DNA of 38,254 nt, from positions 1 through 38,254 of the IMG/VR virus record IMGVR_UViG_3300023118_000006; one strand, written 5' to 3'. The translations under genes and the position numbers were made by a program. Position 1 is the first letter of the stretch; every line of letters begins with the position of its first letter. Source of the DNA: a virus. The notes beneath the pieces are model-generated. The model did no database searches, had not been told where the DNA came from, and was given only the letters and a program-made list of their open reading frames with translations. Below, in pieces: positions 9,809-24,898 of this stretch.

Positions 9809-9812
9809 GGAC

Positions 9813-9820
9813 CAAATATA
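9813..9820 (-). promoter_or_regulatory. Promoter -7 box (TATATTTG) before lipoprotein gene
   Basis: It matches TAnnTTTG and is followed by gtcc then ATG. The transcript would start at or next to the start codon. The 30-bp palindrome sits just upstream, over the expected -33 region. Confidence 0.6.
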
Positions 9821-9823
9821 ACA

Positions 9824-9862
9824 ACAACGACGCGAAATATTTCGCGTCGTTGTGATGAATGG
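9824..9862 (-). promoter_or_regulatory. Composite operator-like element, site A
   Basis: It contains a perfect 30-bp palindrome (9824-9853), core ACGCGAAATATTTCGCGT (9830-9847), and, five bases beyond the core on the plus strand, TGATGAATGG (9853-9862). A weaker second copy, TGTTAAACGG, lies at 9874-9883. The same core, spacing and TGATGA element occur at two other transcription-unit starts (15583-15635 and 24818-24870). It directly abuts the lipoprotein promoter. Confidence 0.6.
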
Positions 9863-9875
9863 TATAAATCGAATG

Positions 9876-10763
9876 TTAAACGGTTTGAATCGATAGGATG
9901 AGCGCGACCAACTGGTCCTTACCTTTTGGAATCTTTACCTTTGGGTTGATGTCTTTGGCGATCTTCGAAAGGGCCGGGAACTTCATTTCCTGCAGTTCGG
10001 CTTCGGTGAATGTCGCCTTTGGTTCGCTGGCCGCTGTTTTGGCGATGTCCATTCCGAAAACGACCGCTGGCGGGTTTGGCCCGTCGTTCGTCAATGTTAT
10101 GCCGGTCACTTCGCCGTCGGTAATCTCGAATCGTTTTTCCGTGGATGGCTCTTTGGTTTCTTCCGGTTCCAGGATGTTGCAAACCAAGTATCCTTTTTCG
10201 TTCTTAACAAAATCGGCTTTTTGCTCGTCGGCCATAACTGACAAGTTCACCAACATAGTGGTTTCCGTCTCGTATAATTCGAACGTCATGTTATTGGCAG
10301 ACAGTGGCGGCATAGCGTCGAAGGCTTCGAACACGGCGTCGATTTCCTCCTGGGTTGCGTCATGGTTGATCACAACGCCGATACGCGTAGAATTGTGAAG
10401 CTGGTCCGGGTTGGTCCATTGTCCCAGGAAAACGGCCGGCGTATCTACCGGTGTCATATCTTTGATGGTGTGCTGCATTGGCGGGATGTGTATAACCTTC
10501 GCCGCTTTTACAGGGACCACCGGTTCGGGGTTCTCGTGGAAAAGGATATAATTTCGCACGGAGTTGGCCGCGTTGTTTACGCAGCTGCTACACCCCTGGT
10601 CGAATGTATCCTTTTTTCCGGTGCTGTGTAGAATCACCGCTGGGTAAATTACTGCCAGCTGCAGGATTTGTTTTGTTGTGAAATCCAATTCCCTGGATAA
10701 CAATTTTTCGCGAAGGGCTTCCAAACATTTGGATTCTTCGGGGGTGAAATCAAATTTACTCAT
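9876..10763 (-). CDS. Conserved phage hypothetical with C-terminal SAP/Rho-N-like segment
   Basis: A 295-residue protein. The first half contains ESKCLEALREKLL and a GCSSCVNNAANSV motif (Cys-x-x-Cys). The C-terminal 40 residues, TEAELQEMKFPALSKIAKD followed by KVKIPKGKDQLVALIL, resemble SAP or Rho-N-type nucleic-acid-binding helices, by eye. It may bind DNA or RNA. It lies between a membrane protein gene (start 11094) and the site A operator, and starts with ATG at 10763. Confidence 0.6.
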   Translation of the reverse strand: MSKFDFTPEESKCLEALREKLLSRELDFTTKQILQLAVIYPAVILHSTGKKDTFDQGCSSCVNNAANSVRNYILFHENPEPVVPVKAAKVIHIPPMQHTIKDMTPVDTPAVFLGQWTNPDQLHNSTRIGVVINHDATQEEIDAVFEAFDAMPPLSANNMTFELYETETTMLVNLSVMADEQKADFVKNEKGYLVCNILEPEETKEPSTEKRFEITDGEVTGITLTNDGPNPPAVVFGMDIAKTAASEPKATFTEAELQEMKFPALSKIAKDINPKVKIPKGKDQLVALILSIQTV

Positions 10764-10785
10764 GTGTATGATTTTGGGATAAAAT

Positions 10786-11094
10786 TTACTTGCGATCGAT
10801 CAGCACGCCGAAAAGGAAAACGGCCGGCGGCGCCAACCAAATATCCAGGATCGAGACGCCGAAAATAAAAAAGGCGATGGCGGTTCCGGAAACGGAAAAC
10901 CACCAGGATACGCAGGGGAAACAATCGAGGGCCTTTACGTATTCCGATTGGGTCCACTTTTCGGATTGGGGATTGCCGCCGCGTTTGATGAACAACCAAC
11001 GCAGCGCGTGTTTGATCCTGGATGAAATGTTGAATTCCTGGTGGACCAGGTACGCAGCGAAGGCGCTACAGATTATTACTTTCAATAGATTCAT
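10786..11094 (-). CDS. Small membrane protein (102 aa)
   Basis: It has two or three hydrophobic stretches: LLKVIICSAFAAYLV near the N-terminus, then VSGTAIAFFIFGVSIL and IWLAPPAVFLFGVL near the C-terminus. The middle has a basic-Trp region and CFPCVSWWFS with two Cys. It starts inside the 3' end of the sigma-like gene. No family was recognised; a small conserved phage membrane protein is the best description. Confidence 0.6.
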   Translation of the reverse strand: MNLLKVIICSAFAAYLVHQEFNISSRIKHALRWLFIKRGGNPQSEKWTQSEYVKALDCFPCVSWWFSVSGTAIAFFIFGVSILDIWLAPPAVFLFGVLIDRK

Positions 11095-11521
11095 AACGGG
11101 TTTTTATTTGGTGTTTGACGAAATTACAGATTTTCAGAATTGTACGTTTGTTGACGCCGGTAGCTTGTGCCAGGTGAATGGCGGATGTGTTGAACTTACA
11201 TTCCTTGTAAACCTGGACCTCCATTCCGTAGCCTTCATTATCCAACTGCTGGAAAATGTTGTACAGCAAAAAAATGTCATAGTTCGGGAATTCCGTTTCC
11301 TCGTCAGGTAAGGCAGGAAAGGACCCCGATTCGCGGATTCTGTGTTGCTTATTGAACTTACTATCCGCGTTCTTGAATTCCCTGGACATAACCGTGTAAA
11401 AATATGTTTCGGGGAATTCGATTTCCTTTCCTGCCAATTCTAAATACACGTGGTGGAACAAATCGGGGCCTAATTCGCCAGCGATTGAATTCGCGTATTT
11501 GTACAGTTTTTGAATATTCAC
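11066..11521 (-). CDS. Sigma-factor-like / HTH transcription regulator (151 aa)
   Basis: It starts with GTG at 11521. The N-terminal part has DLFHHVYLELAGKEI and ETYFYTVMSREFKNADSKF, which recall region 2 of short sigma factors. The C-terminal part has IHLAQATGVNKRTILKICNF, a helix-turn-helix-like segment (region 4-like), followed by KTRYES. From memory, such proteins occur in Bacteroidota phages and are annotated as sigma-like. It would act on late gene transcription, which is inferred. A TAGTTTTG box lies 25 bases upstream of the start. Confidence 0.5.
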   Translation of the reverse strand: MNIQKLYKYANSIAGELGPDLFHHVYLELAGKEIEFPETYFYTVMSREFKNADSKFNKQHRIRESGSFPALPDEETEFPNYDIFLLYNIFQQLDNEGYGMEVQVYKECKFNTSAIHLAQATGVNKRTILKICNFVKHQIKTRYESIESNNL

Positions 11522-11545
11522 TTACGAAAAGTTATCGTTTTCGCA

Positions 11546-11553
11546 CAAAACTA
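11546..11553 (-). promoter_or_regulatory. Candidate promoter -7 box (TAGTTTTG) for sigma-like gene
   Basis: It matches TAnnTTTG and is followed about 25 bases later by the GTG at 11521. Unlike three other sites it lacks the palindrome and TGATGA elements; a weak GTAA..TTAC symmetry lies just upstream. Confidence 0.45.
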
Positions 11554-11575
11554 ACGTAAATTATTACAGAAACCG

Positions 11576-12082
11576 TTATTTTTCGTCCTGCAGCTTGTTT
11601 TTGAAATTCGCCAACCTTTCCTTATCGTACGCCTTCAATGCCTTTCGCTGGCTCCTGGTCAACGGGATGAACTTTATTAAGTTGTTTGGCGTCACTTCCA
11701 GCGTGTTGTTACTTGGAAGTAGTACAAGCGTCTTTTGTGCGCCGGGCGTATCGAAGTCCCAAATAATGCACTGGACGCCACGTTCCGCATGGATCCGGAT
11801 AAACTCGTCGTATTGCGGGTAAACGCCTGGTGCGATCGTTGGCATTTCATCGGCCAGCTGTTTGGCAACTTCGGGAATGGTCCCGGTGTATTCCTTGTTG
11901 AACTTCTTTACAGATTCAGCGGCGGCGCTGGCTGCGATCGCCAGGTCGTTCACTGGACCAGGTTCGAAAGCCGATCCAGTACCACAAACAAGAGGCGGAG
12001 GCGCTGGTGTGAAATCTGCGTTACACTCGGACATCCCGCGTTTTATTTCTTCGCCTGGGTTTACTTTATTTTCGTGGTTCAT
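11576..12082 (-). CDS. Hypothetical protein (168 aa)
   Basis: Not recognised. The N-terminal 50 residues are low-complexity and Pro-rich (ADFTPAPPPLVCGTGS); the rest looks folded, with GVQCIIWDFDTPGAQKTLVLL and a basic C-terminus (RSQRKALKAYDKERLANF). It overlaps the lipoprotein gene end by 17 bases. A gap of about 55 bases without a gene separates it from the sigma-like gene start. Confidence 0.6.
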   Translation of the reverse strand: MNHENKVNPGEEIKRGMSECNADFTPAPPPLVCGTGSAFEPGPVNDLAIAASAAAESVKKFNKEYTGTIPEVAKQLADEMPTIAPGVYPQYDEFIRIHAERGVQCIIWDFDTPGAQKTLVLLPSNNTLEVTPNNLIKFIPLTRSQRKALKAYDKERLANFKNKLQDEK

Positions 12083-12545
12083 CGTCGTCGTTTTTATCTG
12101 TGAAAATATCGATTAAAGTAAAGAGGAAATACACGCCGCCGCCGAACACCAGCCAGGACCAACGATCCCACCAGGTTTTTGATTCGGTTACATATTTCGC
12201 GTATGGAACCTTAACGGTCCGCTCGACGATCTTTAGGACCGTATCGGTTTCCGCCGTAAGGAATATCGAATCCCTGGTATAGTACACCTGGACCCGTACG
12301 TTATCTTTCTGCAGGTACACGGTGTCCCGCAATCGTTCCAGGGTCGTAACGGTATCGATCCTGGTTCCTGGAATCAATACCGTATCCCGGATGTGGACCT
12401 GCAGCGTATCATTTTGCCGGTTGAATAATTCCGGGTGTCGCCGCTGGAATCCCTGCAGGCGTTTGGTTGGTGTGCAGCCAAAAATACCAACGACCATTCC
12501 GGTAAGGAATAGCGTAATCAAAATGTAAACAATCAATTTTTTCAT
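12066..12545 (-). CDS. Two-anchor lipoprotein (spanin-like)
   Basis: Starting at the ATG at 12545 gives 159 residues. The N-terminus is a lipoprotein signal (MKKLIVYILITLFLTGMV, then IFGC as lipobox). The middle is beta/coiled, charged sequence (DTVTTLERLRDTVYLQK), and near the C-terminus WSWLVFGGGVYFLFTLI is a membrane segment followed by an acidic tail. An outer-membrane lipid anchor plus an inner-membrane segment is the layout of a unimolecular spanin, which fuses the two membranes at lysis. It is, however, far from the holin/endolysin genes, so an envelope or superinfection role is also possible. Confidence 0.6.
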   Translation of the reverse strand: MKKLIVYILITLFLTGMVVGIFGCTPTKRLQGFQRRHPELFNRQNDTLQVHIRDTVLIPGTRIDTVTTLERLRDTVYLQKDNVRVQVYYTRDSIFLTAETDTVLKIVERTVKVPYAKYVTESKTWWDRWSWLVFGGGVYFLFTLIDIFTDKNDDDEPRK

Positions 12546-12550
12546 GCTGT

Positions 12551-12579
12551 AAGAATAAGGCCCGGACAATGCCGGGCCT
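12551..12579 (-). terminator. GC-rich hairpin between 292-aa gene and lipoprotein gene
   Basis: An 8-bp perfect stem, AGGCCCGG with CCGGGCCT, with a six-base loop. It is followed by TATTCTT on the coding strand, a weak T-tract, so termination may be partial. Confidence 0.5.
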
Positions 12580-12587
12580 GGTAAATA

Positions 12588-13466
12588 CTATCTTTCAATT
12601 ACGGTAGTGTGCTGCACTAGGACCCTTACCTCCTGTTCGATACGCTCGTCGAACGCTTTGTCCACAAGTTCGGCGCAATCCATCGATTCCAGTTCACAAA
12701 ACAAATCCCGGCCGTTTGTCCCCAGGACGATCATTACCTCAATCGATTGTTTCGGTTCTCCCTTCAACAATGGGATTTGAATAATGAATGATTTGGGTAG
12801 TGACGATTCGACGGTCCGTTGGAAATTATCGATTTGGTTTCCGCCGTCGTCCGCTGCCTTTTGAGCGTCCGCCGTTATCTTCGATGTTGCGTTGCGAAGG
12901 TGTGAAATTATTTGGGAATGTGCTTCCACGGTTGGAAAGATGGAACGCATAAGGCGGAATTGTTTCGCCAGTGATTCCGGTTTGTACTGGTGGCCGGTGT
13001 TAATTTTCAGCTTTTCAAGTTCCGGGGAAAGTTCCAGTTTACCTTTGATCGTAATAGCTTCGTTGGTTTTGCGCTCGTTGATATGCAACTCGATTGTTCC
13101 CTCGGAACGGTTGACCAGGCAATGCGATTGCATTGGGTTGTAAGGTAGTCCGTTCAACTCATCGGCCGCGGCCGGTTCGGTTGCGAAAATTGGCAGCGAT
13201 GCTTTGGCCGCCTGGATCATTTTCTCCCTTTCTTCCGGCGTAAGTTTACCGACGGGATAACAATTTGGGATCGGTCCCTCCGATTCATACGGGTAAATCG
13301 TGGCCCAGGATTTACGTTGTACCAGGAATTCCCGCGGCGCGTTGATGGTTCCGGAAATGCTGACCGCCTTATCGTCCGGGGCGTACTTCACATCGCCGTT
13401 TAATACTGTGATCGTTTGCCCGTTGGCGTTCTCGATCGCTTTGTTGATGTCTAATTTTTGATCCAT
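12588..13466 (-). CDS. Conserved phage hypothetical (292 aa)
   Basis: It starts MDQKLDINKAIENANGQTIT. The first 180 residues are beta-rich (VLNGDVKYA, VSISGTINAPREFLVQRKSW, GTIELHINERKTNEAITIKG) and the rest is helical, with HSQIISHLRNATSKI and a C-terminal EQEVRVLVQHTTV. The first half resembles phage proteins carrying a repeated 'GTI(N/K)' beta motif. No enzymatic residue pattern was seen. It shares one base with the preceding gene. Confidence 0.65.
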   Translation of the reverse strand: MDQKLDINKAIENANGQTITVLNGDVKYAPDDKAVSISGTINAPREFLVQRKSWATIYPYESEGPIPNCYPVGKLTPEEREKMIQAAKASLPIFATEPAAADELNGLPYNPMQSHCLVNRSEGTIELHINERKTNEAITIKGKLELSPELEKLKINTGHQYKPESLAKQFRLMRSIFPTVEAHSQIISHLRNATSKITADAQKAADDGGNQIDNFQRTVESSLPKSFIIQIPLLKGEPKQSIEVMIVLGTNGRDLFCELESMDCAELVDKAFDERIEQEVRVLVQHTTVIER

Positions 13467-13954
13467 TATATTGCTTCGTTGTGGTCGTCGTTATCATTTT
13501 CGACCTTGTTTAAATACTTGATTGCTGTTTGGCGTTCTGCCTTGGTAAGCGTGCGAATGTTGATACAAACACATTCCCCGTCGAATTCGTACATTACGCC
13601 GGCCTCCTGGTCGTCCAGGCTGTAAACGACGCCCTGGCGTTTCTCGGACTTGAAACGGATGGACTGCAGCAATTCTTTTGCCTGCGTGTCCAGGTCCTTC
13701 ATTTCCTTTTTGAATTCGGCCATAATTTCTTTCTTCCTTTCGGCCAGGTCGAACAGTTTAATAGAGACGTCGGAATGTTCCGTTTTGCGTTCAGCCAGTT
13801 CCTCATCGCTCAACGGCTTGGTGTACTTGGTGTCCTCGACTTTGTACGCGATTCCCTGCATGTTGTCGTCCCGTTCCTTTGGGGGAAGTGATGCGATTTG
13901 CAGGGAATACGTTTCGCCAACGTCGAACCTGAATTGCTTTTTTGTGTGTGACAT
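13466..13954 (-). CDS. Hypothetical coiled-coil protein (162 aa)
   Basis: The ATG at 13954 is preceded by the T-rich TTTTTATT context seen before other early starts; a longer start at 14035 would run through a hairpin. It starts MSHTKKQFRFDVGETYSLQ. Its middle (about residues 50-110) is a charged helix (LAERKKEIMAEFKKEMKDL) likely to form a coiled coil; the C-terminus has GVMYEFDGECVCINIRT. Function unknown. Confidence 0.65.
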   Translation of the reverse strand: MSHTKKQFRFDVGETYSLQIASLPPKERDDNMQGIAYKVEDTKYTKPLSDEELAERKTEHSDVSIKLFDLAERKKEIMAEFKKEMKDLDTQAKELLQSIRFKSEKRQGVVYSLDDQEAGVMYEFDGECVCINIRTLTKAERQTAIKYLNKVENDNDDHNEAI

Positions 13955-13975
13955 AATAAAAATTTGATAAATGAA

Positions 13976-13996
13976 CCGGCGAACCATCCCCGCCGG
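13976..13996 (-). terminator. GC-rich intergenic hairpin
   Basis: CCGGCG at 13976-13981 pairs with CGCCGG at 13991-13996 around a nine-base loop. A T-rich stretch follows on the coding strand but not a clean T-tract. It may attenuate transcription or protect an mRNA end. Confidence 0.4.
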
Positions 13997-14006
13997 CGTA
14001 GGGATT

Positions 14007-14336
14007 TTATTTCCTTTCCTTTGGATCGAACCCAACGTACAGGGTTCCTTTTAGGTTGAACATGTCGTGTTCGGTCCATTCCTCCCACGTAACGAAGTTT
14101 TCCACCTGGCGTAAGATGTTGCGCCGGGCGTCCAGTTTGGGCGTTCTGTTGGCTGCCTGGCTGCGATAATCTTCGCGGGTCCATCGCTGGTGAACCTGCA
14201 GCATTTCGATTTCCATTTGGGTTTCCTTGTATCGGATGTGTTGCACGGTTTCCGGATCAAAGCAAATTCCCGTATAGAATTTGTGAACCTTCACGCCCAA
14301 CAACCAGGCGATGATTTTTATAGCTGCTACTCTCAT
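14007..14336 (-). CDS. Hypothetical protein (109 aa)
   Basis: It starts MRVAAIKIIAWLLGVKVHKF, a short hydrophobic N-terminus with a basic edge that may be membrane-associated. The rest is charged (TQMEIEMLQVHQRWTREDY) and ends LYVGFDPKERK. It overlaps the cytosine methylase gene by four bases. Not recognised. Confidence 0.6.
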   Translation of the reverse strand: MRVAAIKIIAWLLGVKVHKFYTGICFDPETVQHIRYKETQMEIEMLQVHQRWTREDYRSQAANRTPKLDARRNILRQVENFVTWEEWTEHDMFNLKGTLYVGFDPKERK

Positions 14337-15154
14337 AATTGGTTTTGTATGTTATTAATGCCTTTGAATATTAAATACGCTATTCGGGGAACGATTGCGT
14401 TTCCTCCGGCTTTGATGCTTTCACGTCTCCAACGTGGAAAGGTAGTTCCGACCACGTTCTCGGAAAACCCATTATCCACCAGTAAAACCGGGGGTTCATC
14501 GAGCCAGGGACCGCCCCGAAAAGTCTGTACAGATGTTCCGCTAAACATCCAGGGGACCTGTGTAGACGTTTCGCGAACATAGGAAAAGAAAGTTTGTCCC
14601 TTTTGTAGTCTGATGCGGTTGGAGTAAGCAACCAAATAGAGGCGTGCGCGATGGTGGGGCGCACCGACTTCTGACGCTCGACAAACTCGCCATTCTGCAT
14701 TATACCCCATTGCGGCCAATTCGGTGAGTATTCGGCCAAAGTCCTTTCCGCCGTTAGTTTTAAGAATATTTGCCACATTTTCGGCGACAACGTAGTCCGG
14801 TTGGATTTCTCGAATAGCTCTACACATTTCGAAAAACAGTCCTGTTCTTTCACCTTCAAGCCCCTGTTGACCTTTGCCGTCCTGTTTAGCTTTGCCGTCC
14901 TGTTTAGCTTGGCTGGCGTCCTGACAAGGGAAACCGCCGGAAAGTACGCGGATTCGGTTTCGCCAAATAGTGAAATCTGATTTGCTGATGTCTTCATAAC
15001 TTTGGGCTTTCGGCCAATAATAATTAAGTATTTGTTGTCCAAATGGATTCCATTCGCAGTGAAAAAGATTTTCATATCCAGCCTGTTCAGCTGCAATATC
15101 AAACCCACCAACTCCGGAGAAAACGGAACCGTGCGTTAGTTCACTCGCTTTCAT
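14333..15154 (-). CDS. DNA cytosine-5 methyltransferase
   Basis: About 273 residues starting MKASELTHGSVFSGVGGFD (SAM-binding motif I). GGFPCQDAS holds the catalytic PCQ cysteine, VAENVANI is motif VI (ENV), VGAPHHRARLYLVA is motif VIII-like and GGNAIVP is motif X-like. The target-recognition region is short. An 18-bp tandem repeat (AKQDGK twice) lies between PCQ and the GERTGL motif. It may methylate phage DNA to evade restriction; no partner nuclease is seen. A start nine to twelve bases upstream (MVNS) is equally possible. A second long frame overlaps most of this gene. Confidence 0.85.
   Translation of the reverse strand: MKASELTHGSVFSGVGGFDIAAEQAGYENLFHCEWNPFGQQILNYYWPKAQSYEDISKSDFTIWRNRIRVLSGGFPCQDASQAKQDGKAKQDGKGQQGLEGERTGLFFEMCRAIREIQPDYVVAENVANILKTNGGKDFGRILTELAAMGYNAEWRVCRASEVGAPHHRARLYLVAYSNRIRLQKGQTFFSYVRETSTQVPWMFSGTSVQTFRGGPWLDEPPVLLVDNGFSENVVGTTFPRWRRESIKAGGNAIVPRIAYLIFKGINNIQNQL
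14380..15111 (-). CDS. Overlapping ORF inside the cytosine methylase gene (243 aa, other frame)
   Basis: A 243-codon open frame on the same strand as, but in a different frame from, the methylase. It contains WPQWGIMQNGEFVERQ, then TPTASDYKRDK, and near its end NPRFYWWIMGFPRTWSELP. From memory, W-P-x-W-G-M and N-P-x-(W/F)-x-x-W-(L/I)-M-G-F-P are recurring motifs of a phage protein family annotated as DNA methylase-like. A chance frame in a coding gene would not be expected to show them. An internal ATG at 14997 would give 205 residues. Whether it is translated on its own is unknown. Confidence 0.4.
   Translation of the reverse strand: MVGLILQLNRLDMKIFFTANGIHLDNKYLIIIGRKPKVMKTSANQISLFGETESAYFPAVSLVRTPAKLNRTAKLNRTAKVNRGLKVKEQDCFSKCVELFEKSNRTTLSPKMWQIFLKLTAERTLAEYSPNWPQWGIMQNGEFVERQKSVRPTIAHASIWLLTPTASDYKRDKLSFPMFAKRLHRSPGCLAEHLYRLFGAVPGSMNPRFYWWIMGFPRTWSELPFHVGDVKASKPEETQSFPE
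14873..14908. repeat. 18-bp perfect tandem repeat within the cytosine methylase
   Basis: TTTGCCGTCCTGTTTAGC occurs twice in tandem at 14873-14890 and 14891-14908. In the methylase frame each unit encodes A-K-Q-D-G-K, and in the overlapping frame A-K-L-N-R-T. Both frames stay open. Confidence 0.8.
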
Positions 15155-15539
15155 TGAATTCACCATTTAACAATAACACAGGTTCATTTTCGGCGCCCAT
15201 AACCCAAACGCCTTTACCGTCATTTTTATACCCAGCTGGCGGACTAACTACAGCATGAACGGTTCCTGTCTTTAAGTTGGAAAAATGGGTTCCAAATCCT
15301 TTGCAATTCGTTACTGTTATACTTTTAACATCTTTGTAAGATTCTGCCTTCGGGCATAGAAAAGCGTTTTTACTGCTGTATTTTCCTGAAACTTCAACGG
15401 TTTCGAAACCATATCTTTTCCCTTTCATTCCACAGTTTTCGCACACCATTTCGTCGAATTGCTTTCCGTTCTTACCTATGGTTACAAGGTTCTTTTTTTG
15501 CCATTTATGGCGTGATGTTTTAATTACTGATTGATACAT
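15141..15539 (-). CDS. Conserved hypothetical with Cys motif (132 aa)
   Basis: Starting at the ATG at 15539 gives MYQSVIKTSRHKWQKKNLV. It has CENCGMKGKRYGFE (Cys-x-x-Cys) and a later NAFLCPKAESYKD, so it may bind zinc. The C-terminal half is SPPAGYKNDGKGVWVMGAEN. From memory, this is a recurring Bacteroidota phage protein of unknown function. The DNA here is more A/T-rich than its neighbours, which hints at independent acquisition. It is the first gene after site B operator and promoter. Confidence 0.65.
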   Translation of the reverse strand: MYQSVIKTSRHKWQKKNLVTIGKNGKQFDEMVCENCGMKGKRYGFETVEVSGKYSSKNAFLCPKAESYKDVKSITVTNCKGFGTHFSNLKTGTVHAVVSPPAGYKNDGKGVWVMGAENEPVLLLNGEFNESE

Positions 15540-15557
15540 AATAAATAATATTTGATT

Positions 15558-15565
15558 CAAAACTA
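15558..15565 (-). promoter_or_regulatory. Promoter -7 box (TAGTTTTG) before the Cys-motif gene
   Basis: It fits TAnnTTTG; the ATG at 15539 lies 18 bases beyond it in a TTTATTATG context. The site B palindrome ends 17 bases upstream of the box, at about the -33 position. Confidence 0.55.
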
Positions 15566-15582
15566 AGCATTACCCATAACCT

Positions 15583-15635
15583 ACGCTAATAATTTAGCGT
15601 TTGAATGATGAGCGGTATTATTGTTTGATGAGTGG
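15583..15635 (-). promoter_or_regulatory. Composite operator-like element, site B
   Basis: Palindromic core ACGCTAATAATTTAGCGT (15583-15600, seven-base arms), then five bases, then TGATGAGCGG (15606-15615), and 20 bases after its start a second TGATGAGTGG (15626-15635). The same core-5-TGATGA arrangement occurs at sites A and C. It lies between the adenine methylase stop and the next promoter. Confidence 0.6.
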
Positions 15636-16343
15636 CTACAATAAGGCCAACTGCTGGTTGTGGAATATGGTTGGGACATTGGACCAAATACATTCGAATT
15701 GTTTCCGTCCCTTTGCGCCGTGTGCCTGCACCATTGGAATGAATGGCAACCAATCCGCCCGGTTATTCTCGCATACGATCGCCTGGCCTTCCCTGGACGT
15801 ACACCAATCCGCCAGGTGTTTGAAATCAATGTTCCGGTTCGATTCACGGTACGAATGGCCGCCAACCTGGTAAGGTGGATCGACGAACCAGGTAGCGCGT
15901 TTGTTGTCTATCTGATCATAGGATCCGGCGTAAATATTCCAGTGGCGTATTTTGTGCAGCTGCTGGGAAATAATTTTTATCGAATGTTCCAGCCTTCCGG
16001 GGCGTTCGGACAAAGAGGGGCTGGCCTTGTTTGCCGGATAAGTAAGGCCGTAGCCGATGAGAAACCCCATAAGTATTTTTTGTTCCTCGCAGTCGAAACA
16101 ATAATCGCTTGTGAGTTCGCCGGTTTTCATCCTGGGTAAACTGGTTATATCTTTCACGCTGCAGCGCTGTAACCATTGCCACAACTTAATAACCGTTTCG
16201 TCCTTGTCAACCAGGGTAACATCGTTTTCGAAATGTTCCAGGCTGTATTTTGCAGCGCCGGCGAATGGCTCGATTATAGTATTGAATTGCGGCTTTGGGT
16301 ACTGGTGTGCAATGTTCGTTTTTGATCCGTAATAACTCCACAT
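15636..16343 (-). CDS. DNA adenine (N6) methyltransferase, D12/Dam class
   Basis: A 235-residue protein starting MWSYYGSKTNIAHQYPKPQ. The motif IIEPFAGAAKYSL is the SAM-binding F-x-G-x-(A/G) motif, and FVDPPYQVGGHSY contains the catalytic D-P-P-Y. Recognition would lie between them (GELTSDYCFDCEEQ). It probably methylates adenine in phage or host DNA, for example to block restriction. It starts inside the stop of the small gene upstream, in a TAATG overlap. No cognate nuclease is visible. Confidence 0.85.
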   Translation of the reverse strand: MWSYYGSKTNIAHQYPKPQFNTIIEPFAGAAKYSLEHFENDVTLVDKDETVIKLWQWLQRCSVKDITSLPRMKTGELTSDYCFDCEEQKILMGFLIGYGLTYPANKASPSLSERPGRLEHSIKIISQQLHKIRHWNIYAGSYDQIDNKRATWFVDPPYQVGGHSYRESNRNIDFKHLADWCTSREGQAIVCENNRADWLPFIPMVQAHGAKGRKQFECIWSNVPTIFHNQQLALL

Positions 16344-16510
16344 TATCGGTTAAATTGTTTAATAAATTTAAATGCCAGTTCGTGTTCTTCGATATCGATT
16401 TCAACCTGTTCAATCAACGATTCGTCGCGATTGGGTTCCTTTTCCCAAATCCGTTTTTCCACTTCCAGTTTGTGCAGCTTTTGTTCTATGGTTTGAATTG
16501 CTGAATTCAT
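16343..16510 (-). CDS. Small coiled-coil protein (55 aa)
   Basis: The 55-codon frame begins MNSAIQTIEQKLHKLEVEK, is nearly all helix with heptad-like hydrophobics, and ends FKFIKQFNR. The stop shares one base with the methylase ATG (TAATG), which suggests coupled translation. It overlaps the 3' end of the preceding 292-aa frame by about 100 bases, so one of the two ends may be wrongly placed. No function is recognised. Confidence 0.55.
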   Translation of the reverse strand: MNSAIQTIEQKLHKLEVEKRIWEKEPNRDESLIEQVEIDIEEHELAFKFIKQFNR

Positions 16511-17895: not shown

Positions 17896-18181
17896 CGCGT
17901 GTAGTTTTTTGATTCGTAACTATTCCCATTACAACGAATCCTTTTTCGATTCCGTATTGGCCGCCTTCCAGGATGTATTTTATTTCGGCCGTAATTTCGT
18001 CGCCTGAATAACGGCCTTCGCCTGCAGGGTTCCCCGGACCTGGTTCGCCGGTGAAATATTCTTTCAGTAGTAAAGTATCTCCCACTTTGTAATTACGATC
18101 GTTTCGTCGAACTTCAAAGTTTTTCAATCCAACCCACACGGCGGAAAATGGCGCGGGGTGTGTTTTTAGTTCATGTAACAT
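17882..18181 (-). CDS. DUF3850/ASCH-like protein
   Basis: The ATG at 18181 gives 99 residues starting MLHELKTHPAPFSAVWVGLK, followed by FEVRRNDRNYKVGDTLLLKE and a C-terminal YILEGGQYGIEKGFVVMGI. This is the typical DUF3850 pattern, an ASCH-like fold thought to bind RNA or modified nucleic acid. It starts inside the end of the small membrane protein gene. A role in RNA or modified-base handling is inferred from the fold. Confidence 0.8.
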   Translation of the reverse strand: MLHELKTHPAPFSAVWVGLKNFEVRRNDRNYKVGDTLLLKEYFTGEPGPGNPAGEGRYSGDEITAEIKYILEGGQYGIEKGFVVMGIVTNQKTTRDGKE

Positions 18182-18264
18182 AATCTGACAATTAAAAAAA
18201 TAATGCAGCCGACGCAAAACAACGCCAGCCAGGGTTTTAGTTTCTCGATTTCCCGGTCCGTCAT
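18166..18264 (-). CDS. Small membrane peptide (32 aa)
   Basis: A frame of 32 codons starts at 18264 in an ATGA overlap with the stop of the upstream gene and stops at 18166. The first 11 residues are charged (MTDREIEKLKP) and the rest is a hydrophobic helix (WLALFCVGCIIFLIVRL). It overlaps the DUF3850 start by 16 bases. The tight coupling and clean membrane segment make a real gene likely; function unknown. Confidence 0.55.
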   Translation of the reverse strand: MTDREIEKLKPWLALFCVGCIIFLIVRLCYMN

Positions 18265-18557
18265 GGCGTTTCGAATTGAAATTTACCGCACGCCTGCCAG
18301 TTGGCCCGCCAATCGTTTGCCGGTCCCGCCGCATCGATAGCCTGGGGACTTTGCATCGTACAACGAAAGTACTTATTTGCGAATTGCTTGTAACCAAGTA
18401 AAGCGCAATTCTTACAACGCTGGTCCGGAGTTGTACCGTACTGGCTTATAAATCCTGCGTGCGTGCGAATCGCTGCGTTGTTCGGGGCCTTCCGTTCTTT
18501 GCCCTTGTCGTCCAGTACCGGTTCCGGAATTGGATCGCCGAATAGGTCCCTATTCAT
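18261..18557 (-). CDS. Cys-rich putative zinc-binding protein (98 aa)
   Basis: It starts MNRDLFGDPIPEPVLDDKGK at 18557, overlapping the preceding gene by eight bases. CKNCALL, then a Cys about 16 residues on (YFRCTM) and a last WQACGKF would form a four-Cys zinc site. The ATG at 18557 was chosen over longer starts, which read the other frame of the upstream gene. No function is recognised. Confidence 0.65.
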   Translation of the reverse strand: MNRDLFGDPIPEPVLDDKGKERKAPNNAAIRTHAGFISQYGTTPDQRCKNCALLGYKQFANKYFRCTMQSPQAIDAAGPANDWRANWQACGKFQFETP

Positions 18558-19059
18558 CTGCAAATCGTTTAGGGTTGAATTCACGCAGGCCGCCGTTTCG
18601 GTCCACCTCATCGAATACAGGTTTGTAATTTTCGTTATCGGGATCGAAGCAACACAACAAAGTCCAAACATTGCCGCGAAGGTTATCGATTTGGTCCTGC
18701 AGGCGCTCCACGTCGTCGATGTGTAATTCCGATTCACAGTTGGGCGAATCGTCCCAGGGAACCAATGCAGAATTTAATGTCTTAATCACACCGTCCAGGG
18801 CGTAAGCCGTACTGCAGCGAAGGCCGTTAAAATCGACCGATATAGCAGGTTCGTAGCTGCTGGGATAATCGACCATGTATCCGTATGGGTCAATCCCTAA
18901 ATGTTCACAATGACGAATGCACGATGTACGACCGGCGGTACTTGTGCCGGACATGATGTAATCGCGGACCAAAACCCAATTATAAGTCCGGGCCATTCGC
19001 TTATTTTCATATCTGATATTTGACAGGATTCGAACCTGCAAATTTTCAATTTTTCCCAT
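18550..19059 (-). CDS. Hypothetical protein (169 aa)
   Basis: It starts MGKIENLQVRILSNIRYENK at 19059, one base after the upstream stop; an alternative ATG at 18996 would start MARTYNWVLVRDYIMSGTST. Central CIRHCEHLGIDPYGYMVD and acidic C-terminal FDPDNENYKPVFDEV parts look structured. The 5' end includes a tRNA T-arm-like stretch (see findings), which favours the second start. Function unknown. Confidence 0.55.
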   Translation of the reverse strand: MGKIENLQVRILSNIRYENKRMARTYNWVLVRDYIMSGTSTAGRTSCIRHCEHLGIDPYGYMVDYPSSYEPAISVDFNGLRCSTAYALDGVIKTLNSALVPWDDSPNCESELHIDDVERLQDQIDNLRGNVWTLLCCFDPDNENYKPVFDEVDRNGGLREFNPKRFADE

Positions 19060-19060
19060 T

Positions 19061-19771
19061 TCAAAAAGGTGTTTTATTCAAATCGATTTCCAGGCCGTTA
19101 TCAGCGACAAAAACCGTTTTGTTAGTTGATCGTTCAACCTGCTGTTTAAAATCCCGTGCGTGGCTGTTTCCGTTGCTCAAATGAATAAGAACGATGTTGT
19201 TTACTTTGGTCAAATCATTTGCAGCAAGCGTTTTTAAGCACGTTTGGATCGACATGTGCGAAAGGTAGTTCGACGTTGTTTCCTGGCGCTCGACTATCTT
19301 TTCGCAATAATTCGCCTCAATGATAATATTATTGAGGTTGGGGAATTTGTACCGTAGGTAATAAGTATCGGTAGCAAATAGAACGTTTCCGCTTTCCGGG
19401 TGGTGGATCATAAACGCCACCGGATCCGCTGCGTTGTGCTTTACTTTGAAAGCCATACAGGTGAATGGACCGACGGAAAACATTTTAAGAGGCTCTACGG
19501 CGGTAAAGGATGGCCCCAAATTAAGGGCCTTTTTTGTACCTGCAGACATAAAAATGTCGATACCGGCGTAAGCCAAATCGCCAACGCTCGACGCGTGGTC
19601 GCCATGTTCATGCGTTACCAGGCATCCGACCACGTTCGTAATGTCGTAATCCAGGGCGGCTTTGATCTCCCGAAAGCGGACGCCGCACTCGATAAGAAGC
19701 GCGGCGCCATCTTTGGCCTGCAGGATGTAAGCATTACCGGACGAACCGGTCCCGACAACTTTTAACCTCAT
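19061..19771 (-). CDS. Metallo-beta-lactamase-fold hydrolase (YycJ-like)
   Basis: A 236-residue protein with VVGTGSSGNAYIL at the start, VTHEHGDHASS (the H-x-H-x-D-H metal motif) around residue 55, VLFATDTYYL and IVLIHLSNGNSH. This is the core of YycJ/WalJ-like MBL proteins, some of which act as nucleases. It follows recT directly and shares one base with it. The combination suggests it supplies the exonuclease activity that RecT needs; this is inference. Confidence 0.82.
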   Translation of the reverse strand: MRLKVVGTGSSGNAYILQAKDGAALLIECGVRFREIKAALDYDITNVVGCLVTHEHGDHASSVGDLAYAGIDIFMSAGTKKALNLGPSFTAVEPLKMFSVGPFTCMAFKVKHNAADPVAFMIHHPESGNVLFATDTYYLRYKFPNLNNIIIEANYCEKIVERQETTSNYLSHMSIQTCLKTLAANDLTKVNNIVLIHLSNGNSHARDFKQQVERSTNKTVFVADNGLEIDLNKTPF

Positions 19772-20775
19772 CAGAATGGGGCCGTTTGTTGTTTACCTGG
19801 TTCAGCTGGGGGACCGAATGTAATAGCGGATTGGACGGGTTCGGCTGCAGCGGTGGCCGTAACCGGTTCGCCTGGACCTTCCGGCACGATCTCAAAGGAA
19901 ATATTTTCCGTGTTGGCTTCGCTGGCGATCTCATCGCGAACCTGGTCCGCTGCGTTCGGTTCCGGAATTTCGGAAATTTCTTTGGCCTCCTGTTCGGCCT
20001 GCAGGAAACGCATGTACTCGTCGTCGATCTTTTTGGAATCGATAGGGATAACACCCCAGGCGGCACGCCTTACGGTTTTGTATGCCATTTCGTCGTACCA
20101 TCCGCCCCAAAATTGGGTCGCGGCGTACTTTGGTTTACGCTTGTCAATGGCAGCCTTTGAAAATTCGCGGACTTTATTTTTTTCGGGATTGTTGATATAC
20201 TGGTGAAAGTAGAATCCGCCGACTACTTCGCCACGGTTGAACGGGTTTTCCGACGTCTCAAAAATGTAGGAATTATATTCGTTGTTCTTGTCTTTTTTGA
20301 TAATCTTGAATTTGTCGTTTGCGTACACAAGTTCCACCACAACGTCGTCCGGAACATCCAATCCGTACTTTTTGGCCTTGATCTCCAAACCTTCGTAACC
20401 TATTTCCAGCGCAACTTCGTATTTTGTTTTCGAAGCGTTCGGCCTGGCGACCGGGTGTACCTGGTTTTTTTGGGTTGCATCCAGGCCAATGGAGGAAAAC
20501 GCGAATACCTGGGGCGCCAACTTTGGTAAATCGATATTGGACCAGGTGTACGATAATGCACTGCGTTGGCTTTCCTGCGTCCCCAGGCGTTTAATTTCCA
20601 AATCCTTTAGCATTGTATCAATGCGGACGAAATAACCCTGGATAAGCCGTTTTTGGAACTCGGTTACATTCGGCGCCCCGTTGTCGGAAGTGAACAACGC
20701 GGTTATTTGATTCATGAATCGTTCGGAGATCGAAACCTCGTTTTTCTTTTGCTCTAATTCTGTGTTGCTACTCAT
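19771..20775 (-). CDS. recT: RecT-family single-strand annealing protein
   Basis: A 334-residue protein. LAPQVFAFSSIGLDATQKN, HPVARPNASKTKYEVALEIG and YEGLEIKAKKYGLDV match the conserved RecT core; the C-terminal 80 residues are Pro/Glu-rich and probably flexible. It anneals complementary strands in phage recombination. It lies between an SbcC-like ATPase and an MBL hydrolase, with four bases between the ATPase stop and its ATG. GGWYDEMAYKTVRRAAWGVI is another RecT-like stretch. Confidence 0.9.
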   Translation of the reverse strand: MSSNTELEQKKNEVSISERFMNQITALFTSDNGAPNVTEFQKRLIQGYFVRIDTMLKDLEIKRLGTQESQRSALSYTWSNIDLPKLAPQVFAFSSIGLDATQKNQVHPVARPNASKTKYEVALEIGYEGLEIKAKKYGLDVPDDVVVELVYANDKFKIIKKDKNNEYNSYIFETSENPFNRGEVVGGFYFHQYINNPEKNKVREFSKAAIDKRKPKYAATQFWGGWYDEMAYKTVRRAAWGVIPIDSKKIDDEYMRFLQAEQEAKEISEIPEPNAADQVRDEIASEANTENISFEIVPEGPGEPVTATAAAEPVQSAITFGPPAEPGKQQTAPF

Positions 20776-20779
20776 CTGA

Positions 20780-22786
20780 TTATAAATTAAAATGTGCTTT
20801 AAATGTCTCGGTTTCCGATACGGCCAGGTTGATCACCTGGGAAACGGTCGGAATGATCGCTGTAACGCTTTCCCTGGAATCGATCATAATCGGGGCGCTG
20901 CAGCCATAGAACGCCGTTGCCGCATTAATGAAAGCCAGGCCAGCGTTTACCCGTTGTGCGTGGTTCAGGTCCTTGTATGCCACGCCATCGACCATACATT
21001 CACACGTCGCCGCTTCGCCTCCGTTGTACTGGCTATCGTACATTTTGTAAGTAATGTAAATCGGTGGTTCGCCGGTCCCTGGATTCAGCGGAAAGGCGCG
21101 GAACAATTCGTTCGTTTTCTCCTGGATCGTTTCGGCCTTCATTTTGTTGAATAGGTTTATCGAATCTTCGGAGATTTCGAGGTCCGCGATTTGTTGCGCG
21201 TTTTGGCGCTGCAGGTCCTTTAATTCCTTCATCCTGGATTCGGCGTCGATCAAAGTTTGTTTGCTGGAAAGTTCCGTTTTCAACTTGTCGATTTCCTCCT
21301 GGACGATCTTTTTTAACTGCTGTTGGTGTGTGGTATCCACGGTCCCGATTTCCGGAACCACGATCGCGGCGATTTGCGCCTGCAGGTCCTTTTCCTCCTG
21401 GGATACTTCGCGGACCTTTTGGGAATGTTCGGCGATGTGCGTATCGAAACTCGCAGCGTCAAAGCGTGCAGTATCGAGTTTGCCAGGTAATCCGTTCATT
21501 TCCGGCAGCAACTTTTCCAGTTCTGCATTATCTTCCGAAATCCTGGATTTAAGAGATTCACCGATCCCCAGGATTCGATTTAGTTCCGTTTGCTTCGCGG
21601 TGTCGAATCTGCTTTGGCCGTTCACGCGTTCGCTTTCCAGGCGTTCGGCTGTATAGGCTGCCTGGCATGTGGAACAATGGGTGGCCGTTGGATTGAATTC
21701 ATAAACCTTCGCGTTTTCAGTTTCCCAATCCTTTCGCACCTGGTCCAGCTTGGTAGTGTTGGCCGAAATGTTTCCACGTAAAGAGGCGACGGAATCGACC
21801 AGGTTGTTATATTTCGTTTGCAGCTGCAGGACAATGGATTCCTTTTCGCCTTTGGATTGGATGAGGCTATTTAGTCCGGCGTTGTGCTTTGTGTTCAGGT
21901 CGTTTGTAAGCGTCTGCAGCTGTTGTTCCAACTCGAACTTTCGTTGCTTTAGGCCGCTGATTTCCTCAAACTTTTGGTTTTGCCCCTGGTTCAAATCGTT
22001 TATACGGGTGTCGATGCTTTCAAGTTCCGATTGTTTTTTGACGATCGCCGCCTCAATCCCTGGGAAATCCTTTCCGGCGTGTAGCGAGTGCGTGCGCTCG
22101 ACTTCCTTGTGCTGGATTGGAAGGGCTGTTTTTTCTTCCTTCAACTTTTTGAGTTTGCCGGCGATGTTCGTTTTATGCTTTGCCAGATCCGAACTTTCGG
22201 CCATCAGCTGGCGAAGGCGATCGGCGTACAATGGTTTCAATCCCTGGATAAACATTTCTTCCGGCATGTCCCCAGCCATTTTAAGCAAAACACTTAAACG
22301 CTTATTCCAGGCGAACGATTCGGAATTGAAATATAACGGGTCCGTAATTATTTTGATGAGGTCCGGCGGGATCAACGCGGCTATTTCCCGCTGGTATTCA
22401 GCTGCAGGAACTTTGTTGTTGTTGACATAGTACGAAATCTCGTTGGACTTGTTTTTCAATTCGGCGTCACCTTTCACGCTGGACCACTTTTCGATCACTT
22501 CGCGGCGGAATGTGGTTTCCACGCCCTCGCAGATAAATACGCCCTCCATTCCGTGCGTAAGATCCGGAATAACCGCGCCGGATTTGTCCGTGGTTTTGAT
22601 TCCGAATTTTGCCTCGTCCGCTGAATTCTTGCCAGTGACAAGCCAGTGATAACCGTCTGCAGCGGTCGTTTTACCTTTGCCGTTTGGCCCGACGATGTTC
22701 GTTACGTCCGCGTTTAGGTCCAGGACCAAATGTCGAATTCCTTTAAAATTCTGATACGTAAGCGTTTTTAAAATTACTTTTTTCAT
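20780..22786 (-). CDS. Rad50/SbcC-like recombination ATPase with zinc hook
   Basis: A 668-residue protein starting MKKVILKTLTYQNFKGIRHL. Walker A (GPNGKGKTTA) is at about residues 33-42. Two long coiled coils (about 170-350 and 400-550) flank HCSTCQAAYTAE at about residue 368, whose Cys-x-x-Cys fits a Rad50 zinc hook. The C-terminus has NAGLAFINAATAFYG (signature) and PIMIDSRESV (Walker B, D in place of the usual D-E/E-S order). It starts in ATGA overlap with the HTH gene. No SbcD is seen; the MBL protein may be its nuclease partner. Confidence 0.85.
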   Translation of the reverse strand: MKKVILKTLTYQNFKGIRHLVLDLNADVTNIVGPNGKGKTTAADGYHWLVTGKNSADEAKFGIKTTDKSGAVIPDLTHGMEGVFICEGVETTFRREVIEKWSSVKGDAELKNKSNEISYYVNNNKVPAAEYQREIAALIPPDLIKIITDPLYFNSESFAWNKRLSVLLKMAGDMPEEMFIQGLKPLYADRLRQLMAESSDLAKHKTNIAGKLKKLKEEKTALPIQHKEVERTHSLHAGKDFPGIEAAIVKKQSELESIDTRINDLNQGQNQKFEEISGLKQRKFELEQQLQTLTNDLNTKHNAGLNSLIQSKGEKESIVLQLQTKYNNLVDSVASLRGNISANTTKLDQVRKDWETENAKVYEFNPTATHCSTCQAAYTAERLESERVNGQSRFDTAKQTELNRILGIGESLKSRISEDNAELEKLLPEMNGLPGKLDTARFDAASFDTHIAEHSQKVREVSQEEKDLQAQIAAIVVPEIGTVDTTHQQQLKKIVQEEIDKLKTELSSKQTLIDAESRMKELKDLQRQNAQQIADLEISEDSINLFNKMKAETIQEKTNELFRAFPLNPGTGEPPIYITYKMYDSQYNGGEAATCECMVDGVAYKDLNHAQRVNAGLAFINAATAFYGCSAPIMIDSRESVTAIIPTVSQVINLAVSETETFKAHFNL

Positions 22787-23097
22787 GCTGTTTTGAAATT
22801 TGGGTTATGTTTCCCGGTTTCCATCATTCCGTTGACCGTGAATGAATCGACGTATTGTTCGTCCCTGTAAATGATCACCGTATCGCCGGACGGTTCGCAG
22901 GTGCAACCGATCGCCTTAACGTATCTTTCCAGGGTTTTGTATTCCATTGTTTCGCTTTTTAATGCGCGGGATACGCTGCTGGAAACCATGTCCAGGCGTT
23001 TCGCGAATTCTCCCTTTGAAATGCCGAATTTGACCAGCAACATTTCAACCAGTGTACCGGCTTTCCCGGTGGTGTTTACCAATGCTTTTTCCATCAT
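22783..23097 (-). CDS. XRE-like helix-turn-helix regulator (104 aa)
   Basis: It contains LLVKFGISKGEFAKRLDMVS followed by SSVSRALKSETMEYKTLERY, a helix-turn-helix of the lambda repressor/XRE type at about residues 18-60; the C-terminus is a beta-type tail (SGDTVIIYRDEQYVDS). It is a candidate for the protein that binds the three composite operators. Its ATG shares one base with the stop of the gene upstream. It has no separate promoter visible. Confidence 0.72.
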   Translation of the reverse strand: MMEKALVNTTGKAGTLVEMLLVKFGISKGEFAKRLDMVSSSVSRALKSETMEYKTLERYVKAIGCTCEPSGDTVIIYRDEQYVDSFTVNGMMETGKHNPNFKTA

Positions 23098-23363
23098 TAA
23101 AAAATTATTTTAACATTAAATTCATTCTCGATTTCTTCTACGGTCATTTTACGCGCCGGTGGAACTTCGCGCATAAACTCCCAGGCATACGTTTTTCTGC
23201 GTGTCCCTGGACTATCCGTTTTAAAGCATTTTTTAACCGTGAAATCTATGGAAAGTAATTTTCGTTTATGCCATCCGTTCCCGTTGCTAAACTCCAATTC
23301 CCGTTTTTCAGGATTGATTCGGGCAAAAATTTGTCCGGCTTTTAGTGTTGGTGATTCCTCCAT
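23097..23363 (-). CDS. Hypothetical protein (88 aa)
   Basis: The ATG at 23363 (MEESPTLKAGQIFARINPEK) lies just after the upstream stop; longer starts add an unrelated tail. It has a WHKRKLLSIDFTVKK stretch and ends in VEEIENEFNVKIIF. Basic and soluble. Function unknown. Confidence 0.6.
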   Translation of the reverse strand: MEESPTLKAGQIFARINPEKRELEFSNGNGWHKRKLLSIDFTVKKCFKTDSPGTRRKTYAWEFMREVPPARKMTVEEIENEFNVKIIF

Positions 23364-23364
23364 A

Positions 23365-23616
23365 TCAATACAATTTACCGTCGTATTCCGCGAACTGTTC
23401 ATTATCCGGGAACTGGACGAATTTTAACGAATGTTGTCCAGTTTTTTGGAAGGGGACAACGACCCCCATTTGTTTGCCTTTGAATCCTACAAACGACGGA
23501 TTGCAAACAAACCCTTTCGTTTCTCCGACCTGGGTAAAAACGCCAACGACGCCAGGCGAAACGATGTACGCCTGGCCTAACGTCAAGTCCTTAACACTTA
23601 CTTTTGATTGTGACAT
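23365..23616 (-). CDS. Hypothetical protein (83 aa)
   Basis: It begins MSQSKVSVKDLTLGQAYIVS; GVVGVFTQVGETKGFVCN and KGKQMGVVVPF suggest a small beta-barrel-like fold. Between two hairpin-flanked neighbours. Not recognised. Confidence 0.6.
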   Translation of the reverse strand: MSQSKVSVKDLTLGQAYIVSPGVVGVFTQVGETKGFVCNPSFVGFKGKQMGVVVPFQKTGQHSLKFVQFPDNEQFAEYDGKLY

Positions 23617-23635
23617 TGATTTGATTTTAAATTAG

Positions 23636-23668
23636 ATTCCCCGGCGCGGTTCAATGCGACCGGGGAAT
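23636..23668 (-). terminator. GC-rich intergenic hairpin
   Basis: ATTCCCCGG (23636-23644) pairs with CCGGGGAAT (23660-23668) around a 15-base loop, between two small early genes. There is no clear T-tract on the coding strand. Termination would be partial; RNA protection is an alternative. Confidence 0.45.
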
Positions 23669-23671
23669 GGG

Positions 23672-23986
23672 TTATTTCGTGCGGCTGGCTGCCTCCTTTT
23701 TCTTTTTCAACTCATTAACGCGGCGGTTCATGGCAACGGCAAAATTCACCGTTTCCATAGCGATGTCCATCGCCTCCAACACTTCCGGCGGAATACCTTC
23801 GCGTCCTGGGTGGTTTTTCAGGTCGTCCGCGTCGATTTCCACGCGTTCTTTCACCATCGCGATTTCCGTATTCCGGGCCAGCTTTTCAGCGAATAGGCGT
23901 CCCGCTTCGTCGAGGCTTTCCGCTTCAACCGTAACTTTCATTTTCTTGTCGAAAACGGAAAAATAAAATGTGAATTCTTTTTTCAT
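23672..23986 (-). CDS. Hypothetical protein (104 aa)
   Basis: It begins MKKEFTFYFSVFDKKMKVTV, then AESLDEAGRLFAEKLARNTE; the C-terminus is Lys-rich (LKKKKEAASRTK). It resembles small beta-alpha early phage proteins. The ATG at 23986 is preceded by CAATATT. Function unknown. Confidence 0.6.
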   Translation of the reverse strand: MKKEFTFYFSVFDKKMKVTVEAESLDEAGRLFAEKLARNTEIAMVKERVEIDADDLKNHPGREGIPPEVLEAMDIAMETVNFAVAMNRRVNELKKKKEAASRTK

Positions 23987-24000
23987 AATATTGGAATTAT

Positions 24001-24020
24001 CCCCCGGATTGCGCCGGGGG
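24001..24020 (-). terminator. GC-rich intergenic hairpin
   Basis: CCCCCGG pairs with CCGGGGG with a six-base loop, 14 bases upstream of the next gene's ATG. No T-tract follows on the coding strand, so it may act as an attenuator or stabiliser. Confidence 0.4.
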
Positions 24021-24027
24021 AATTGGG

Positions 24028-24474
24028 TTACTTAACTGTGATTGTTACAAATTTTGCAGGTCGTCCGGAGTTTGAAACGCCTGGTTTGATCATCATTGAT
24101 TTGCAAACCATTTTTAATTCGGCCAGCTGCAGCAATTCGGATCCGTCGATAAGAGGTTGGACGATCGAAACCGTTTCTTTTGCCTCGTGAATGTCCGCTT
24201 TTGATCCTGGGAAAATATGTTCCAACCTGGCCTTTAAGCCTTCTAGCGGGGTTTCATAAACTTCCTTGATTTCCTTACGGACGAATTCAACCGGTTGGTT
24301 CTGTACCTCGATGAACCCGGCGTCGTGATCGAATCGAACGCCGAAACGGTCGAATTCCCACTTTTTTAGTTGCGCCTCCCTGAATTCGGCGCGGAACTCG
24401 GTTTCCAGTTCCGGTTTAACGCAAACAGCCACGCCGCGTTCCTCATTTTTCAAAATTACAATGTGTAATCCCAT
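24028..24474 (-). CDS. Hypothetical protein (148 aa)
   Basis: The ATG at 24474 gives MGLHIVILKNEERGVAVCVK in a CATTTATTATG context; a longer start at 24747 would read a shadow of the gene before it. It contains FRAEFREAQLKKWEFDRFGV and ends VSNSGRPAKFVTITVK. Not recognised. Confidence 0.65.
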   Translation of the reverse strand: MGLHIVILKNEERGVAVCVKPELETEFRAEFREAQLKKWEFDRFGVRFDHDAGFIEVQNQPVEFVRKEIKEVYETPLEGLKARLEHIFPGSKADIHEAKETVSIVQPLIDGSELLQLAELKMVCKSMMIKPGVSNSGRPAKFVTITVK

Positions 24475-24524
24475 AATAAATAAATGTTTAATGCGCGTTG
24501 ACCGGATACGCGCCCCCCGTTTCT

Positions 24525-24764
24525 TCAATATGCTAATACCTTTGCGGTGTCCAAATGAATGGCTTTTGCGACTTCTGAATCGAGGGAAAAGGCGCCGTTG
24601 TGGTCGTCGTCCATGTTGACGATTGCAATTTCCAATCCTGGCTTGAATCGTCCAGCCGCCCACGCTTCCGCGGCCTGTGCATCCGGTTGGTGTGTGCTGT
24701 GTTGACCCATAAGGCCAATTGAATTTCCCGCCATTGGGACCAAACAAATAAAGTGCTTTTTCAT
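24525..24764 (-). CDS. Hypothetical protein, first gene of the early operon (79 aa)
   Basis: The ATG at 24764 (MKKHFICLVPMAGNSIGLMG) lies 27 bases after the -7 box; an ATG at 24794 falls before the predicted transcription start and is rejected. It has EAWAAGRFKPGLEIAIVNMD and a histidine-rich early part (QHSTHQ). First gene of the long early transcription unit. Function unknown. Confidence 0.65.
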   Translation of the reverse strand: MKKHFICLVPMAGNSIGLMGQHSTHQPDAQAAEAWAAGRFKPGLEIAIVNMDDDHNGAFSLDSEVAKAIHLDTAKVLAY

Positions 24765-24791
24765 AATAAAATGTGTTCGTTTTGTGTTGAG

Positions 24792-24799
24792 CAAATATA
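24792..24799 (-). promoter_or_regulatory. Early promoter -7 box (TATATTTG)
   Basis: It matches TAnnTTTG, with TTG 16 bases further upstream as a -33 candidate. It lies after the lysis terminator and before the first early gene, and is the best promoter candidate in the window. The site C palindrome overlaps the -33 region. Confidence 0.72.
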
Positions 24800-24817
24800 A
24801 CTACTCTTTTTGAATCA

Positions 24818-24870
24818 ACGCTAACTATTTCGCGTCAAAATGATGAACGGTTGCAAAATGGTATGAACGG
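24818..24870 (-). promoter_or_regulatory. Composite operator-like element, site C
   Basis: Core ACGCTAACTATTTCGCGT (24818-24835), five bases, TGATGAACGG (24841-24850), and a second GTATGAACGG 20 bases after its start (24861-24870). The layout equals sites A and B. It sits between the lysis terminator and the early promoter. Confidence 0.62.
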
Positions 24871-24898
24871 AAAAAGCCCTGGACGAATCCAGGGCTTT
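24871..24898 (-). terminator. Rho-independent terminator after endolysin
   Basis: A perfect stem (AAGCCCTGGA with TCCAGGGCTT) and tetraloop TTCG, followed by five T on the coding strand. It closes the late/lysis transcript. A short T-run on the other side may make it bidirectional. Confidence 0.85.

Follow-up and report, generated by a model that had tools for sequence, protein, structure and literature searches.

The window analyzed in this study is the viral record IMGVR_UViG_3300023118_000006 (G000) at its full length of 38,254 bases. An identical repeat of 127 bases occurs at both ends of the record, and the window is therefore a complete phage genome that closes into a circle of about 38.1 kb. 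The minus strand carries every credible gene of the phage, and the intergenic gaps that were found total about 1.0 kb, or ~3% of the genome. The TerL protein is nearest to those of Elizabethkingia phages (46%) and Flavobacterium phages (44%), which, together with the Bacteroidota TAnnTTTG boxes in the promoters, indicates that the host is some Bacteroidota bacterium. A tRNA-Ser (GCT) gene is located at 6915–7005, with a TACCTTTG box upstream at 7080–7087, ~75 nt before the gene.

Three intergenic sites, all in one common orientation along the direction of transcription, open three groups of genes. Immediately next to site 3 (24.8 kb) is the intrinsic terminator that serves the lysis genes before it (24871–24898, minus strand). 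The site opens the early/replication unit, which contains small genes, an XRE-fold helix-turn-helix (HTH) protein of 104 amino acids (22783–23097, minus strand), an SbcC-like ATPase, RecT, a metallo-hydrolase, replication genes and a D12-type methylase. Site 2 (15.6 kb) opens a unit with a C5 cytosine methylase as its second gene (14333–15166, minus strand) and, further on, a candidate late regulator of 151 amino acids (11066–11521, minus strand); the site is flanked by two DNA methylases, the C5 type and the D12 type (15636–16343). Site 1 (9.8 kb) opens a lipoprotein gene with a C-terminal K1-lyase_C domain (9488–9808, minus strand), beyond which lie the packaging genes. A terminator-like hairpin (9438–9487) follows the lipoprotein gene, so that this gene may be the main one served by site 1. 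In the related phage G001, the homologue of the gene upstream of site 1 (g9876) abuts terS with no intervening lipoprotein gene, which suggests that the lipoprotein region (9438–9883) is an inserted cassette that brought its own promoter. Two similar GC-rich hairpins, possibly attenuators, are found in gaps of the early unit (23617–23671 and 23987–24027). The metallo-hydrolase (19061–19771) is related to Porphyromonas phage proteins annotated as anti-Pycsar (Apyc1-like), with a Pfam Apyc1 score under the curated cut-off.

Read in the sense of the genes, the composite site consists of a CCRYTCATCA-like element (element 2), 10 or 11 nt, a CCRYTCATCA element (element 1), exactly 5 nt, and the core ACGCKAAATNNTTMGCGT. 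On the plus strand, the inner part reads ACGCKAANNNNTTMGCGT-N5-TGATGANNGG and is located at 9830–9862, 15583–15615 and 24818–24850, with the second elements beginning 21, 20 and 20 nt further on at sites 1, 2 and 3, respectively. At site 1, the core ACGCGAAATATTTCGCGT (9830–9847) lies within a perfect 30-bp palindrome (9824–9853), followed by element 1 CCATTCATCA (9853–9862) and element 2 CCGTTTAACA (9874–9883; TGTTAAACGG in the plus-strand reading), which shares bases with the stop codon of the gene upstream. Site 2 is formed by the core ACGCTAAATTATTAGCGT (15583–15600), element 1 CCGCTCATCA (15606–15615) and element 2 CCACTCATCA (15626–15635; TGATGAGTGG in the plus-strand reading), the latter immediately past the D12-type methylase stop codon. 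Site 3 comprises the core ACGCGAAATAGTTAGCGT (24818–24835), element 1 CCGTTCATCA (24841–24850) and element 2 CCGTTCATAC (24861–24870; GTATGAACGG in the plus-strand reading). The palindrome is imperfect at sites 2 and 3. Each site is accompanied by a TAnnTTTG (−7) box on the minus strand: TATATTTG at 9813–9820, 4 nt ahead of the lipoprotein ATG; TAGTTTTG at 15558–15565; and TATATTTG at 24792–24799. The distance from core to box is not constant, at 9, 17 and 18 nt for sites 1, 2 and 3.

This arrangement bears out the original prediction, which had described a palindromic core, exactly five bases, a TGATGA-type element and a second related element 20 or 21 bases further on, next to TAnnTTTG boxes that open an early, a methylase and a lipoprotein unit. 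The three sites were found where it had placed them, with two corrections: they belong to the minus strand, and the range 9824–9862 given for site 1 omits its second element.

The pattern ACGCKAANNNNTTMGCGT-N5-TGATGANNGG has three matches in the 38-kb window and none in 100 dinucleotide shuffles (0 expected). A position weight matrix covering element 1, the spacer and the core scores the three sites at 47.8–51.5 and everything else on the same strand at 8.6 or below, in line with the forecast that only these sites would score. When all 32 TAnnTTTG boxes are compared without prior selection over their 90 upstream bases, only three pairs reach at least 22/33 identity, and these are the pairs formed by the three sites; the best triple has a similarity sum of 74 versus a maximum of 67 in shuffles (0/1500 reach it). 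The minus strand carries 14 TAnnTTTG boxes in 38 kb, and each composite has one within 20 nt, an association whose chance at three of three sites is, by a rough estimate, ~1e-5. The composite is confirmed as a real motif common to three promoters and found nowhere else in the genome. The same motif ahead of at least two separate promoters and absent elsewhere is one mark of a phage-regulon operator, and this is the pattern found here. Promoter-like boxes without the composite stand before the candidate regulator (11546–11553) and before the tRNA-Ser gene (7080–7087); therefore, the composite marks a subset of promoters.

Conservation is concentrated in the boxes of the composite, with invariant columns at 8/10 positions of element 1 and 14/18 of the core (22/28 jointly) as against 0/5 of the spacer, and the flanks are near random (8/60 invariant columns downstream and 2/54 upstream). 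Conserved boxes with drifting spacers point to protein binding, and not to duplication or RNA; selection for binding is preferred because a recent copy-and-paste event would have preserved the spacers as well. An RNA element, that is, a hairpin or terminator between units, is most improbable. Site 1 does give a 13-bp stem of −20 kcal/mol, and sites 1 and 2 have no other terminator between units. Site 3, however, keeps the sequence but pairs only through its outer arms (−5.6 kcal/mol) and is already preceded by a true terminator, none of the cores is followed by the U-run that would accompany a conserved stem, and conservation tracks sequence and not pairing.

A phage regulon with three sites is likely on these grounds: the motif, its spacing, orientation and intergenic position, and the adjacent boxes all support the predicted stacking of two different elements. 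When the TAnnTTTG box is set at −12 to −5, after the transcriptome of F. psychrophilum (PMC9723704), the composite spans −75 to −22 at site 1, −82 to −30 at site 2 and −83 to −31 at site 3, and thus about −83 to −22 overall, which is the usual activator zone. A TTG with a spacer of 17–23 nt is found ahead of none of the three boxes, site 3 having one at 16. Most other TAnnTTTG boxes likewise have no suitably spaced TTG, so the missing −33 element is weak evidence for activation. From the location of the composite and the lack of a clear −33 element, activation would be favoured over repression, at about even confidence. Against activation, the difference between core-to-box distances of 9 and 17/18 nt amounts to about 0.8 helical turn, a variation that a strict contact activator would tolerate badly. 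One element common to early and late units gives no timing by itself.

The candidate binder of the palindrome is the HTH protein of the site 3 unit. Its family matches are weak but consistent (HTH_3, HTH_26 and phage regulators), and its structure model displays an XRE domain with a confident helix-turn-helix core (mean pLDDT 75). The best structural matches include C.Esp1396I, Stl, HipB and HigA, with Foldseek E-values of ~0.04–0.1 and identities of ~15%; the nearest folds are those of restriction-modification controller and antitoxin proteins. XRE family members bind short palindromes as dimers, and an XRE-fold protein encoded nearby, as expected of an XRE-type repressor and its operator, is present. 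The link between protein and palindrome consists solely of this fold class and of the position of the gene in the site 3 unit; the modeled protein may bind the palindrome, with a likelihood somewhat short of even.

The same protein could instead act negatively. As a Cro- or C-protein-type repressor on the palindromes, it would damp or shut down the three units, with a host activator on the repeats. This repressor regulon is unlikely. It is consistent with the XRE fold (nearest to C.Esp1396I, Stl and HipB), with the location of the HTH gene inside the unit that it would autoregulate, and with the palindrome of site 1, which extends to about −22, a position that would suit a repressor as well; this point also counts against activation. 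At sites 2 and 3, by contrast, the palindrome stops short of the core promoter, near −30, and no integrase occurs among the annotated phage proteins, so that lysogenic silencing is not an obvious need. Operators of the XRE/Cro type and of the restriction-modification controller C.Esp1396I resemble the present sites in their short palindromes and small HTH dimers, which have the fold nearest to the candidate protein, but differ in that here each promoter has one palindrome and not an OL/OR pair, and two of the three palindromes stand upstream of the core promoter. In the stoperators of cluster A mycobacteriophages, too, a single phage-specific site recurs across the genome and is read by a phage repressor (PMC9283540); these stoperators are numerous and act on elongation, whereas the present sites are three and promoter-linked.

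The direct repeats are 10 bp long and 10–11 bp apart, with a period of 20–21 nt, and lie at −83 to −45, centred near −60 to −68. They recall the sites of LytTR regulators, whose consensus also resembles ACCGTTCAT; sites 1 and 2 deviate from it. LytTR-type sites are pairs of 9-bp repeats 10–13 bp apart upstream of −35 (PMC11347149), a geometry that the repeats of the composite share. The operators of AgrA, HdrR and CoxC also have two short direct repeats that are two helical turns apart and centred near −60 to −68 (PMC4227749, PMC6193735, PMC11347149), but LytTR sites do not include a palindrome at a fixed 5 bp, and Pfam scans covering early, middle and small proteins of the phage detected no LytTR domain.

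The repeat geometry, and the resemblance to the LytTR consensus, could mean that a host regulator alone, LytTR or other, reads the composite and that phage transcription tracks the state of the host, a distinctly improbable reading. The exact composite is absent from 84,980 genomes, and sites with up to three mismatches occur in 0/398 sampled genomes of one Bacteroidota order and in 1/395 sampled across the phylum; the single three-mismatch match was judged a probable chance occurrence. The XRE proteins encoded by one genome from that order are tandem paralogues of a generic kind and show no connection with the composite. A dual gate, in which a palindrome-binder of the phage and a LytTR-type repeat regulator of the host would be jointly required at the fixed 5-bp spacing in early, middle and late units, is improbable; if true, phage development would be gated by both phage and host state, through a type of composite operator not described for Bacteroidota phages.

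The repeats could also be read by the 151-residue protein (11066–11521). Late-activator regulons of phages with a comparable layout include those of P2 Ogr and Mu C. In the regulons of phi13 Ltr (S. aureus) and TP901-1 Alt (lactococcal), repeated sites at about −80 to −30 lie upstream of host-sigma promoters, and a small phage-coded regulator, here a candidate, has packaging genes downstream; Alt binds between −76 and −32, at direct repeats that are imperfect, and Ltr depends on a region of repeats that precedes its promoter (PMC13123087). The present system differs from these regulons in that the early unit, too, is opened by the site, which pairs two unlike elements, and in that the activator is only a candidate. 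The gene lies two genes upstream of the packaging unit, and site 1 opens the lipoprotein and packaging genes. A homologue occupies the same place near terS in G001, and a weak match to the Mor family is found. With a TAGTTTTG box of its own just before it (11546–11553) and no composite, the gene may be expressed independently of the composite. That this protein is an activator binding the direct repeats is nevertheless quite unlikely: G001 carries the homologue but no composite site, the Mor match (E-value 0.038) is below the curated cut-off, the structure model (pLDDT 37) is too poor for fold assignment, and the protein would have to act on the early unit too.

A search for the exact composite in 2.9 million viral contigs yielded none. 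Single-protein searches of viral contigs for relatives of the HTH protein, RecT and TerL gave no result, whereas alignment-based searches with TerL, the portal protein and the metallo-hydrolase gathered related loci totalling 2.77 Mb. The best matches to the composite in these loci differ at 6 of 26 positions, and those with 6–7 mismatches were judged to be chance. The relatives G001 and G010 have the structural module in common with the window, at roughly 30–67% protein identity, and differ in their early regions; both lack the composite. The expectation that related phages keep the spacing was thus not borne out. The regulon is known from one genome and is not a conserved family trait among the relatives found. 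No homologue of the HTH protein was detected in G010, or in G001 by tblastn of the window proteins, and no relative was found that conserves both the HTH protein and the palindrome. The absence of the composite from G001 and G010 is uninformative about function, because these two phages differ from the window in their early regions and yielded no HTH homologue. An occurrence of CCGTTCATTA upstream of a TAnnTTTG-like string in G001 and G010 was dropped, as it is single and the TAnnTTTG lies inside a terminator hairpin.

From the observed motif, its uniqueness, orientation and promoter context, we infer a scheme of protein binding, one regulon and activation in which the three sites would be upstream control regions of host-sigma-type (TAnnTTTG) promoters in a Bacteroidota phage. 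The early/replication, methylase/late-regulator and lipoprotein/packaging units would form one regulon. A dimeric helix-turn-helix protein, most likely the XRE-fold protein (22783–23097), would occupy the 18-bp palindrome, and a second protein, bound in adjacent positions along the same DNA face, would take the two 10-bp direct repeats, spaced two helical turns apart. The complex would most likely activate promoters without a good −33 element, and since the early unit encodes the HTH protein, it would boost its own expression and turn on the other two units. The chances for and against the scheme in full are evenly balanced. If the regulon reading is right, a single composite site in several copies would stand ahead of most of this small phage's genome, giving a compact system whose two DNA elements and two candidate proteins are directly testable. 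A limited literature search found no published account of gene timing in Bacteroidota phages. Apart from the regulatory sites, a structural gene is present in two copies (27079–27648 and 31146–31721) that are 92% identical over 300 nt, and both match a single place in G001.
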